Source: Pyrinomonadaceae bacterium (GTDB lineage: Bacteria; Acidobacteriota; Blastocatellia; Pyrinomonadales; Pyrinomonadaceae). Taken from it: DNA of 64,000 nucleotides. This document shows, piece by piece, positions 7,947 to 11,398 of this stretch (the stretch's first letter is position 1; every line of letters begins with the position of its first letter). The notes beneath the pieces were generated by a model. That model worked only from the letters and a program-made list of their open reading frames with translations, searched no databases and was not told the DNA's origin. The DNA is taken from contig JANWYH010000001.1 of the NCBI GenBank assembly GCA_025054715.1, positions 370,001 through 434,000 of the forward strand, read 5' to 3'. The position numbers were made by a program, and so were the translations under genes.

Positions 7947-8648
7947 ATGAAAAAATTTGTAAGTTCGCTTATTTTTGCTCTGATGATTTGTGGGCTTTCA
8001 GCAGTTAAAGAAGCGCAGGCACAAAGGCGAAAGCCAGCTTTAAAGAGCTCAACATCTACCAAGACAACGACTACTACGCAGTTTTATCGTGTTAATGCTG
8101 GCACAGTGATAAGAGTTAGGATGAACGATACTCTTAGTTCAAAAACTGCTAGAGTAGGAGACAGGTTTACTGTGAATGTTATCGAGCCTGTTTACTCAAA
8201 CAACGGAGTTCTTGTAATTCCGGTTGGTAGCGTCATAACAGGAAGAGTTGACGCCGTTACGCCCGCTAAAAAAGGTGGTAAGCCGGGAACGCTTGATGTA
8301 AGTTTTGTATCGGTGAGACTTCCAAATGGAGTAACTAGAGCAATAAATGGTTCTTTGACGAGCCTAACAGCTGATGACGCAAAAAGCGATGAAGAAGGAA
8401 CCGCAAAAGGTGATAGAATGAAGCATCGCAAGGTTATATTCATAGGTGGCGGTGCCGGTGGTGGAGCTATAATTGGAGCCGCTGTGGGTGGAGCAAAAGG
8501 AGCAGTGATTGGTGGAATAATTGGAGCTGGTGCCGGTCTTCTCGGCGAGCGCCTAACCAAAGGTGAAGAAGCAGAAGTAAAACCAAACACGGAGTTTGGT
8601 GTTTATCTGAATCAATCAATTACGATGCGTAAATGGGTAGAAAGATAA
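7947..8648 (+). CDS. Exported glycine-zipper protein
   Basis: A 233-residue protein with an N-terminal signal peptide (residues 1-25), a Lys/Ser/Thr-rich linker and a domain opening FYRVNAGTVIRVRMNDTLSS, which continues with a V..G...IPVGSVITGRV strand pattern. Near residues 165-200 comes a long Gly/Ala glycine zipper (GGGAGGGAIIGAAVGGAKGA), which usually inserts into or oligomerises on membranes. The same architecture occurs at 19492-20106, so the two are paralogues. Expression probably ends at the terminator at 8671. Function unknown; likely a surface or outer-membrane-associated protein. Confidence 0.72.
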   Translation: MKKFVSSLIFALMICGLSAVKEAQAQRRKPALKSSTSTKTTTTTQFYRVNAGTVIRVRMNDTLSSKTARVGDRFTVNVIEPVYSNNGVLVIPVGSVITGRVDAVTPAKKGGKPGTLDVSFVSVRLPNGVTRAINGSLTSLTADDAKSDEEGTAKGDRMKHRKVIFIGGGAGGGAIIGAAVGGAKGAVIGGIIGAGAGLLGERLTKGEEAEVKPNTEFGVYLNQSITMRKWVER

Positions 8649-8670: not shown

Positions 8671-8706
8671 AAATGCCGGGTTTGAAAAAGCCCGGCATTT
8701 CTCTTT
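8671..8706 (+). terminator. Intrinsic terminator after glycine-zipper gene
   Basis: Perfect 10-bp inverted repeat, AAATGCCGGG at 8671-8680 and CCCGGCATTT at 8691-8700, with a 10-base loop, followed by TCTCTTTT. It separates the glycine-zipper gene from the rpmH promoter. Confidence 0.8.
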
Positions 8707-8724: not shown

Positions 8725-8754
8725 TTGACAATTTCTTTATTTTTTTCGTAAACT
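8725..8754 (+). promoter_or_regulatory. Probable sigma70-type promoter for rpmH/rnpA
   Basis: TTGACA at 8725-8730 is a perfect -35 hexamer; TAAACT at 8749-8754 (spacer 18) is the best -10, matching 4 of 6. It lies 35 bases ahead of the rpmH start and just after a terminator, the expected place for a promoter. Confidence 0.5.
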
Positions 8755-8781
8755 TCTAATTTTCAATGTCTTTAATTGAGG

Positions 8782-9306
8782 ATGCAATATGCCGAAAAGA
8801 ACATATCAACCGAACAATCGTCGTCGAGCCAAGAAACACGGATTTCGAGCGAGAATGGCGACCAAAAGCGGCAGAGAAGTGATAGCACGTCGTCGGGCGA
8901 AAGGGCGCAAACGATTAACTCCGCATCACTACTAGGATTTCGCCTGCCGAAGGAATGCAGATTAACGAAGGCATCGCAGTTTCAGCTTGTTTATGCTCAA
9001 GGCAAGCGTTTTGAAGGAAAATATATGACGGTATTTGTAATGCCTTCAGAAGGAGTTTTTCACAAATTAGGAATTACCGCTTCGAGAAAAGCTTTAGGGA
9101 AGGCTCATGATCGCAATAGAGCTAAACGCCTAATACGCGAGGCTTTTCGTTTGAATAACCCCTTTCTTTACAAGCTAAAGAAAAGGTATTGGTGGGTTGT
9201 CAACGCAAAGCGAACATTGCTTGATGTTAAGCTCAAAGAGCCTCTTGAAGAACTTGAGAAAATAATAGAAGCCATTAGCGATCAAGAAAATAAAGGTGAG
9301 ATATGA
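8782..9306 (+). CDS. rnpA: Ribonuclease P protein component, with N-terminal extension overlapping rpmH
   Basis: The conserved RnpA core of about 123 residues begins just after the rpmH stop ([20 protein letters not shown]) and includes the signature RNR region [16 protein letters not shown], which binds RNase P RNA. No ATG, GTG or TTG exists in frame between the end of rpmH and this core. The only canonical starts are ATG 8782 and TTG 8776, both upstream of rpmH; a stop at 8773-8775 closes the frame. This yields about 174 residues with a 50-residue Ser/Thr/Gln-rich extension read out of frame through rpmH. The same nesting is known from Thermus. A rare CTG or ATT start after rpmH cannot be excluded. 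RNase P RNA itself is at 29251-29691. Confidence 0.88.
8789..8935 (+). CDS. rpmH: Ribosomal protein bL34
   Basis: A 48-residue, extremely basic protein beginning [20 protein letters not shown] and ending RKRLTPHHY, an unmistakable bL34 with standard length. It is a structural component of the large ribosomal subunit. GAGG at 8778-8781 sits seven bases before this ATG, ideal spacing. The whole gene is embedded in a different reading frame of the rnpA open frame (8776/8782-9306), so the same bases can encode both proteins. dnaA, often upstream of rpmH, is not present. Confidence 0.97.
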
Positions 9307-9515
9307 TAAAGTCAGCACTTCTCGATCTCATAAAACTTTATAAACTTGTTTTCTCGCCCCTTCTTCCGCCTTCTTGCCGCTTTGAGCCTACTTGCTCGGA
9401 TTACACCTATCAAGCAATAGAAAAGTATGGAATTTTGACAGGTCTGTGGATGGGATTTAAGAGAATTCTAAGATGCAATCCTTTTTGCAAAGGTGGTTAT
9501 GACCCCGTAAACTAA
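9303..9515 (+). CDS. yidD: Membrane protein insertion efficiency factor YidD
   Basis: A 70-residue protein with the YidD hallmarks: an amphipathic N-terminal helix followed by CRFEPTCSDYTYQAIEKYG and RCNPFCKGGYDPV. It assists YidC/Sec-dependent insertion at the inner membrane. The ATG overlaps the rnpA stop (ATGA), and yidC starts two bases after its stop, the conserved rpmH-rnpA-yidD-yidC order. Confidence 0.95.
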   Translation: MIKSALLDLIKLYKLVFSPLLPPSCRFEPTCSDYTYQAIEKYGILTGLWMGFKRILRCNPFCKGGYDPVN

Positions 9516-9517
9516 AA

Positions 9518-11398
9518 ATGATGAATGATAGTCAAAGACAAAGGGAACAGCAGATAAGACTGCTTCTTGCGGTTACGCTTTCAATGTTGGTTTTAACGGC
9601 TTGGACTTATTTTTTCGCACCAGAGCCATCAAAAGAACAATCTCAGACTGTCAAAGAAGAGCCTCAACAACAAGAAGTAAGCAAAGTTAGCAAAGAAATA
9701 TCTCTGACTGAGGAAAAAGATAATTTTCCAAATAGAACAATTACAATTAAGACACCTCTTTACGAGGTAAAGATAGACTCAAAAGGTGCTCTGGTTACTA
9801 GCTGGATTTTGATAAAAAATGTTCACGATCAGCATGAAAAACTTCTCTTTGCTGACGGTGGAAATGGCATTTCTGGTAAGCCTCTCGAATTGATACCAGA
9901 TAAAGCATTAGAAACCAGAATGCTGCCTTTTCGACTTTTTACGGGAAATGAACAACTAGACGCACTTGTTAATGAGAGAAATTATGAGATTTCCGAAAGT
10001 GAAAGCATTATAGAACTTTCTGAAGGGCAATCCAGGCAAATAAGTTTTCGTCTGAAAACTCAAAGTGGTGTAGAGGTTACCAAGACTTTTTCTTTTAAGG
10101 CTGATAGCTACTTAACGGATTTTTCTGTGCAAGCTAGCGTAAACGGGTCCGTTTTAGATGATCTAAAACTTCTAGTAGGCGCAGGGATAGGTGATAAAGC
10201 TATAGTTCGACACAATTATTATCACATAGAACCCGAAGCCGTAGCTTTAATAGGAGAAACAGTCGAAAGGTACGGAGGTTACTATTTTACTTACAATGGT
10301 GCAGAAGCGAAAAGAGTTTTTACAGGTAACGTAAATTGGGCTGCTGTCGGTGATACATATTTCGTTACCTCAGCTATTCCTTTACAGCCTGTCTCTCAAG
10401 TAGAGTTTCGGTCTTTAAGATACGAAGTTCCAGTGGAGCCTTTCTACGATGGAATTTTTGCATGGATTACACGCCATCAAACAACAAAGCTTACCAAGCA
10501 CATGGTTTCAGCCTACATACCTGTAAGAGCGGATGGAACGGTGATAAAAATTTATACTGGTTCAAAAGATTACTTTACGCTTGAGCAATATGATAACATG
10601 CTTAAAGATGAGATCGGTCGAGAAATAAATCTTGATAATCTTATCAATTGGGGCTGGACTGGTGCCATTACAAAACCTATTGCCATTCCGCTTCTTCGTG
10701 CTTTGAACTTTATTTTTGCTTACGTAGGGAATTACGGAACAGCGATCATAATTTTTACGATAATTTTTTATTCACTTTTTTTCCCTTTGCGTTGGTATCA
10801 ATCGAAATCTTTCAAGAAGGCACAGGCGAATGCTCCAAAGATGCAGCAGATTCAGGAAAAGATAAGACAGCTACAGAAAAAAGGTGTTCCCATAGACGAT
10901 CCGAGAATGCGTGAACTTCAAATGGAGCAGCTTCGCTTGATGAAAGGAGCTATTCCGTTAGGTGGTTGTTTACCTTTATTGTTGCAGATTCCGTTATTTA
11001 TTGCTCTTTATGTTGCTGTTACTATTTCGCTTGATTTCAGACAGGCTCATTTTCTATGGCTTCCTGATCTGTCAGCGGCAGATCCATGGCATTTGTTAGA
11101 GTTTCTTTTTGCTGGTTCAATGGTAATTTCAATGGCGTTGACGCCGACGGCTCCAGCTATGACGCCAGAGCAGAAGATGCAGCAGAAGATGATGACATAC
11201 CTGATGCCTTTGATGATGCTATGGCTTCTTTGGGGCGCGCCCTCCGGACTTTTGCTTTACTGGTTTTTTGGCAATTTAGTAAGCTTTGCCCAGCAGGTTA
11301 TCATAAATAGACTTGTTGCTGAACCGTCTCCTATCGAACAGCAAGATCAAAGCGAAAGTCTTGAAAAAAAGCCTAGAAGAAGGGCTTCTGCATCATAA
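9518..11398 (+). CDS. yidC: Membrane protein insertase YidC
   Basis: A 626-residue insertase of Gram-negative type: an N-terminal membrane segment (about residues 12-29), a Glu/Gln-rich linker, a large periplasmic beta-super-sandwich domain (to about residue 370), then the conserved 60-kDa insertase core with helices around YVGNYGTAIIIFTIIFYSLF, the cytoplasmic coiled hairpin (KKAQANAPKMQQIQEKIRQL) and later membrane segments (PLGGCLPLLLQIPLFIALY). The C-terminus is basic (KKPRRRASAS). It inserts proteins independently of or together with SecYEG. Confidence 0.96.
   Translation: MMNDSQRQREQQIRLLLAVTLSMLVLTAWTYFFAPEPSKEQSQTVKEEPQQQEVSKVSKEISLTEEKDNFPNRTITIKTPLYEVKIDSKGALVTSWILIKNVHDQHEKLLFADGGNGISGKPLELIPDKALETRMLPFRLFTGNEQLDALVNERNYEISESESIIELSEGQSRQISFRLKTQSGVEVTKTFSFKADSYLTDFSVQASVNGSVLDDLKLLVGAGIGDKAIVRHNYYHIEPEAVALIGETVERYGGYYFTYNGAEAKRVFTGNVNWAAVGDTYFVTSAIPLQPVSQVEFRSLRYEVPVEPFYDGIFAWITRHQTTKLTKHMVSAYIPVRADGTVIKIYTGSKDYFTLEQYDNMLKDEIGREINLDNLINWGWTGAITKPIAIPLLRALNFIFAYVGNYGTAIIIFTIIFYSLFFPLRWYQSKSFKKAQANAPKMQQIQEKIRQLQKKGVPIDDPRMRELQMEQLRLMKGAIPLGGCLPLLLQIPLFIALYVAVTISLDFRQAHFLWLPDLSAADPWHLLEFLFAGSMVISMALTPTAPAMTPEQKMQQKMMTYLMPLMMLWLLWGAPSGLLLYWFFGNLVSFAQQVIINRLVAEPSPIEQQDQSESLEKKPRRRASAS

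Follow-up and report, generated by a model that had tools for sequence, protein, structure and literature searches.

The gene rpmH, encoding ribosomal protein L34, and the front of rnpA, encoding the RNase P protein, appear to share one stretch of DNA that is decoded in two frames in a Pyrinomonadaceae bacterium and in about fifty of its relatives. Within the 64,000-nucleotide stretch of DNA analysed here (the window; contig JANWYH010000001.1), rpmH would be nested in rnpA with an initiation region shared by both genes, and RnpA would start at AUG 8782. The probability of this reading is put at about 0.8 for the window genome, and it is higher when the nested start is considered for the clade as a whole. 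Sequence comparison indicates that rnpA is most probably translated from the upstream start through rpmH, which gives RnpA a disordered extension of about 53 residues.

The order rpmH-rnpA-yidD-yidC in the window is the usual one (Table 1). The rpmH product matches L34 (PF00468, 1.4e-23, 82.9 bits against a cut-off of 25; TIGR01030, 78.8 against 37.65). The RnpA domain occupies residues 55–164 of the product read from 8782 (PF00825, 6.9e-25, 87.7 bits, cut-off 22.3), and the same product matches TIGR00188 at 54.5 (cut-off 38.35). Both genes are present in one copy each, and a search across the genome for second copies of rpmH or rnpA found none. Upstream of the rpmH unit, at 7947–8648, lies a 233-residue open reading frame whose C-terminal part is rich in glycine and which matches nothing in Pfam. 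The rnpA frame is free of stops from TTG 8776 through rpmH to 9306, while the remaining alternative frame of rpmH holds three stops. TTG 8776 and ATG 8782 are the only canonical starts in the rnpA frame 5' of the RnpA core, and ATG 8782 precedes the rpmH ATG by four bases (CAAT). Behind the rpmH stop, no in-frame ATG, GTG or TTG occurs until ATG 9025, which is inside the conserved core. The only near-starts of the frame are ATT 8914, which is inside rpmH, and CTG 8944. A sequence-only reading of the window had described this open frame, the lack of canonical starts behind rpmH, the four-base interval and the GAGG in front of it, all of which were confirmed, and its estimate of a roughly 50-residue extension is refined to 53–54 residues before the ordinary N-terminus.

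Table 1. Features of the rpmH-rnpA locus in the window.
Feature	Position	Strand	Remarks
Sigma-70-like promoter of the rpmH-rnpA unit	8725-8754	+	TTGACA 8725-8730, spacer 18, TAAACT 8749-8754; 10/12 matches
Predicted 9-bp hairpin just upstream of the starts	8759-8783	+	3' arm contains the GAGG Shine-Dalgarno; single-strand folding only
Shine-Dalgarno GAGG, single	8778-8781	+	7 nt 5' of the rpmH ATG; directly abuts the rnpA ATG
rnpA, nested reading, 174 aa	8782-9306	+	ATG 8782 to TGA 9306
Coding region of the putative RnpA N-terminal extension	8782-8943	+	Out of frame, overlaps rpmH; open and start-bearing in the clade
rpmH, ribosomal protein L34, 48 aa	8789-8935	+	Wholly within rnpA, out of frame (-1)
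CTG at the old RnpA N-terminus, rival start	8944-8946	+	AGGA 8934-8937 lies 6 nt upstream
yidD	9303-9515	+	4-nt overlap with the rnpA stop (ATGA)
yidC	9518-11398	+	Next after yidD

When rpmH is recoded synonymously, with codons drawn as in the long open reading frames of the window, the rnpA frame stays open in 0.37% of the recodings. Such evidence from the window genome alone is suggestive only against chance, and the relatives were therefore examined. RnpA was found in 102 of the 119 genomes of the window's GTDB-coded family, and 99 loci were parsed. In a quick tree of the RnpA core, YidC and L34, which has many weak inner branches, the window falls inside a 60-genome clade that has SH-aLRT support of 99. 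The rnpA gene is in −1 phase relative to rpmH in 59 of these, and in these 59 the distance to a fixed point of the RnpA core is always 323 or 326 nt, an in-frame difference of 3. In the 39 other family members the phases are distributed 18/15/6 and the distances are scattered. Of the 60 clade members, 54 have an in-frame ATG or GTG at −13, −10, −7 or −4 relative to the rpmH ATG, in each case exactly 7, 10 or 13 bases upstream, as opposed to 3 of the 39 others; over this stretch, neither of the two remaining frames has an ATG in any clade member. In the family members outside the clade, RnpA starts with ATG, GTG or TTG from a few to about 30 bases 3' of the rpmH stop. Divergence at fourfold sites of rpmH is 0.47 in the clade versus 0.66 in non-nested relatives, with similar divergence of yidC; synonymous change of rpmH is also slow in the non-nested genus g29.

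The best sampled genus of the clade, g22, comprises 38 parsed genomes, whose rpmH genes fall into about 29 clusters at 8% divergence. All 38 have a start at exactly −13 (ATG in 29, GTG in 9), and the rnpA frame is open in all 38 when 3.7 are expected from the codon usage of neighbouring genes. No stop is seen in this frame within rpmH versus about 76 expected, and none of the 341 rpmH codons that could make one does so. This avoidance begins at the second rpmH codon, and translation must therefore begin upstream of rpmH. Several genomes of the genus have the frame closed farther upstream, at −22, which leaves −13 as the main canonical start. Downstream of rpmH, the g22 genomes have no canonical start before the conserved core except a TTG at +155 in four of them, and seven genomes also have no CTG, ATT, ATC or ATA from +100 to +200. 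For g22, nesting can be regarded as established to the extent that sequence evidence allows. A chance open frame is rejected on three grounds, namely codon shuffling, the codon usage of neighbouring genes and the synonymous recoding, and an assembly error is unlikely given that the pattern is seen again in dozens of genomes.

The rival that survives best, although it is improbable, is that RnpA of the window starts at CTG 8944 by translational coupling or reinitiation, like the TTG of ordinary relatives, and that the open frame has been left over or is due to chance. The CTG has an AGGA 6 nt upstream (Table 1), and it directly adjoins the beginning of the RnpA domain at residue 55 of the nested product. 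In the window's genus, for which two genomes were compared, the second one (L053) carries a TTG at +155, the place of CTG 8944 in the window. Among the nested-like genomes outside g22, the codon at the old RnpA N-terminus is TTG in eleven including L053, CTG in five, and CTT or CTC in five; furthermore, those clade members in which the frame is closed mostly retain CTG here or TTG at +173. However, CTG is a rare start, the frame would be open by chance in only 0.4% of cases, and both genomes of the window's genus have kept the open frame and the ATG at −7. In g22, the frame is open and the −13 start is always there, yet the codon has turned into TTA or CTA in many genomes, or into another non-start, so that most of this genus cannot use a start at this position. 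The sequence-only reading had itself raised a chance open frame combined with a rare start codon; the chance part fails on the 0.4% and on conservation in the clade, and the CTG with its AGGA is what is left of that proposal.

The open frame could also be a side effect of biased codon choice, since rpmH is a ribosomal gene with high expression. Non-nested relatives do fall below prediction in the −1 frame of rpmH, with 53 stops among the 40 genomes outside the nested-like genera versus 91 predicted from neighbouring-gene usage. This explanation is nevertheless rejected as very improbable by the contrast within g22, where codons ending in T are found at 0 of 341 stop-making sites versus 218 of 1041 harmless ones. 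In addition, shuffling the codons within each g22 gene leaves 19 genes open when 37 of 37 are observed to be open, and the +1 frame is open in only 1 of 38. Still less credible is an L34-RnpA fusion that would result from a programmed −1 frameshift late in rpmH: the rnpA frame is indeed the −1 frame of rpmH, but a frameshift would not need the in-frame start 5' of rpmH that 54 of 60 genomes have, does not predict stop avoidance from the second rpmH codon as upstream initiation does, and has no classic heptameric slippery site in rpmH when this gene is inspected by eye.

The nested arrangement is not uniform in the clade. Of its 60 members, 55 have an rnpA frame without stops across rpmH; four members (L007, L032, L037 and L061) have stops in this frame inside rpmH, and L059 has rnpA in another phase. 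Stops in relatives had been named in the sequence-only reading as evidence against nesting. Those in the four members bear against it in these genomes, while the 55 open frames, the retention of the upstream start in about 55 clade genomes and the lack of any stop in g22 bear it out, as does the comparison with sister genera, which are ordinary, have rnpA in any phase and carry stops in that frame. The exceptions reflect either losses of nesting or several gains of it, between which the tree is too weakly resolved to choose. L009 has ATC 10 bases before the rpmH ATG where its relatives have ATG, and its frame is still open; its RnpA may possibly start at this AUC or at TTG −22. In L037, the frame stop is at +5 of rpmH, and no canonical RnpA start was found on either side of rpmH, nor any ATG, GTG, TTG or CTG after it. 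In the clade genera other than g22, including the window's own, the upstream ATG and a downstream TTG often occur together. The clade would display intermediate steps, from a TTG after rpmH through both starts to the nested start only.

In the proposed mechanism, one initiation region would serve both rpmH and rnpA, with the 30S subunit docking at the single GAGG. Its spacing of 7 nt to the rpmH ATG is good and that of 0 nt to the rnpA ATG is poor for initiation, and the 30S subunit would start mostly at rpmH AUG 8789 and less often at rnpA AUG 8782. A similar geometry, with the rnpA start between the Shine-Dalgarno sequence and the rpmH start, is seen in many other genomes. From AUG 8782, the ribosome would read the −1 frame through rpmH into the RnpA core to produce the 174-residue protein. 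Most ribosomes would presumably make L34 and a minority RnpA, so that competition between the starts at one site would tie the supply of RNase P protein to that of ribosomal protein at a low ratio. Ribosomal proteins are in excess over RNase P, and a high yield of L34 with little RnpA would fit this. The extension is predicted by AlphaFold to be disordered, with pLDDT below 50 at residues 1–33 and 35–52 and about 45 over residues 1–52. The RnpA core models well and is matched by Foldseek to RNase P proteins in the PDB (7uo0, 6d1r, 4jg4, 1nz0 and 1a6f). The extension itself probably contributes little to function; the N-terminal third of the Thermus protein is reportedly dispensable in vitro.

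A terminator-like hairpin at 8671–8700 precedes the promoter-like site, and TTTGACA...TAAACT is found 5' of rpmH in nearly all nested relatives. After this strongly conserved promoter, the relatives L002–L085 have a hairpin, TTTTCACTT...AAGTGAA, at the same place as that of the window, and in the window the predicted hairpin takes in the only Shine-Dalgarno sequence. These hairpins are defined by single-sequence folds and visible inverted repeats, and RNAalifold gave no consensus structure on the alignment of the upstream hairpin. The predicted 5' hairpin may be an element at the 5' end of the mRNA that controls rpmH-rnpA.

The arrangement closely resembles that of Thermus. In both, rpmH is located fully inside rnpA and out of frame, the rnpA start lies a few bases before the rpmH start with one Shine-Dalgarno sequence for the two, and RnpA carries an N-terminal extension, which is a prediction from sequence in the present case. 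Changes in the length of the Thermus extension are said to keep the reading frame, as do those in the −1-phase members of the clade, where the two distances differ by one codon's length. The nested rnpA-rpmH of Thermus (Feltens et al. 2003, PNAS, PMID 12719542, as described in PMC9841429) is, according to an experimental study of 2022, the only described bacterial site at which one ribosome-binding site starts two overlapping frames (PMC9841429). The start-to-start distance is 4 in Thermus (AUGGAUG; PMC9841429), whereas it is 7 in the window and 10 or 13 in its relatives. In g22, unlike Thermus, the GGAG sits inside the first rnpA codons and GTG may replace ATG. As to a start of rnpA after rpmH, seven g22 genomes have none at all, and the window has no ATG, GTG or TTG but has CTG 8944 with its AGGA. 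Expression has been demonstrated in Thermus; the present case is a prediction from sequence and belongs to another lineage surrounded by non-nested relatives. Shared ancestry of the nesting with Thermus is unlikely because rnpA is non-nested in further genera of the same family and in the families sampled from the class. The present arrangement would work like that of Thermus but is probably not homologous to it as an arrangement. The E. coli genes pqiA, tamA and narQ likewise have two out-of-frame starts (AUGUG or GUGUG) in competition at a single initiation region, with native expression of the alternative frames left unclear or shown at the reporter level (PMC9841429), whereas both frames encode conserved proteins of central function here. 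The ordinary rpmH-rnpA-yidD-yidC operon has the same gene order and neighbours, but there the start codon of RnpA, an ATG, GTG or TTG, lies at the rpmH stop or closely follows it, and the window lacks such a codon at this place. A literature search, thin on subscription journals, found no report of nested rnpA-rpmH in acidobacteria.

Surveys of rpmH-rnpA loci were extended to the class and the phylum beyond the window's family. The sampled families of the class have mostly the ordinary arrangement. Long open frames in GC-rich genomes elsewhere in the phylum were counted as nesting only when accompanied by a conserved upstream start. In family f47, eleven genomes from seven genera (L218–L222, L226, L227, L229, L230, L232 and L235) have an ATG at exactly −7 (GTGATGnnnnATG); the frame is open in 10 of 11 (2.7 expected) with 1 stop versus 15 expected, while in sister genera the phase of rnpA differs and there is no start at −7. 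In family f11, 8 of 9 genomes (L209–L213, L215, L217 and L165) have TTG or GTG at exactly −7, and the frame is open in 9 of 9 (2.9 expected). An NTG at −7 is found at 9 of 86 other loci of the phylum. In both families, RnpA may instead begin at a CTG or GTG overlapping the TGA stop of rpmH or at a start shortly behind this stop; an rpmH that ends in TGA in −1 phase automatically gives an NTG overlapping the stop. The two families are strong candidates for nesting, apparently independent of the window's clade. A shorter out-of-frame overlap is seen in two further families, f34 and f10, where RnpA apparently starts at an ATG in the 3' end of rpmH (+116; L163, L177, L178, L182, L192 and L204). 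The sequence-only reading had suggested that dual coding either arose twice or is more widespread than described, and this looks right, as f47 and f11 carry the same signature. It is fairly likely, though with less confidence than the nesting itself, that nesting arose at least three times in the phylum (in the window's clade, f47 and f11) besides Thermus, as a recurrent outcome that perhaps reflects selection for linking the supply of RNase P protein to that of ribosomes by start-codon competition.

The nested coding thus appears to have arisen separately from that of Thermus, and probably more than once. Clade-wide and apparently repeated nesting with intermediates would turn a curiosity into a testable evolutionary pattern, and dozens of relatives are available to ask whether competition between start codons sets the ratio of L34 to RnpA. 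The findings also suggest that rnpA start sites are easily mis-annotated in these genomes.
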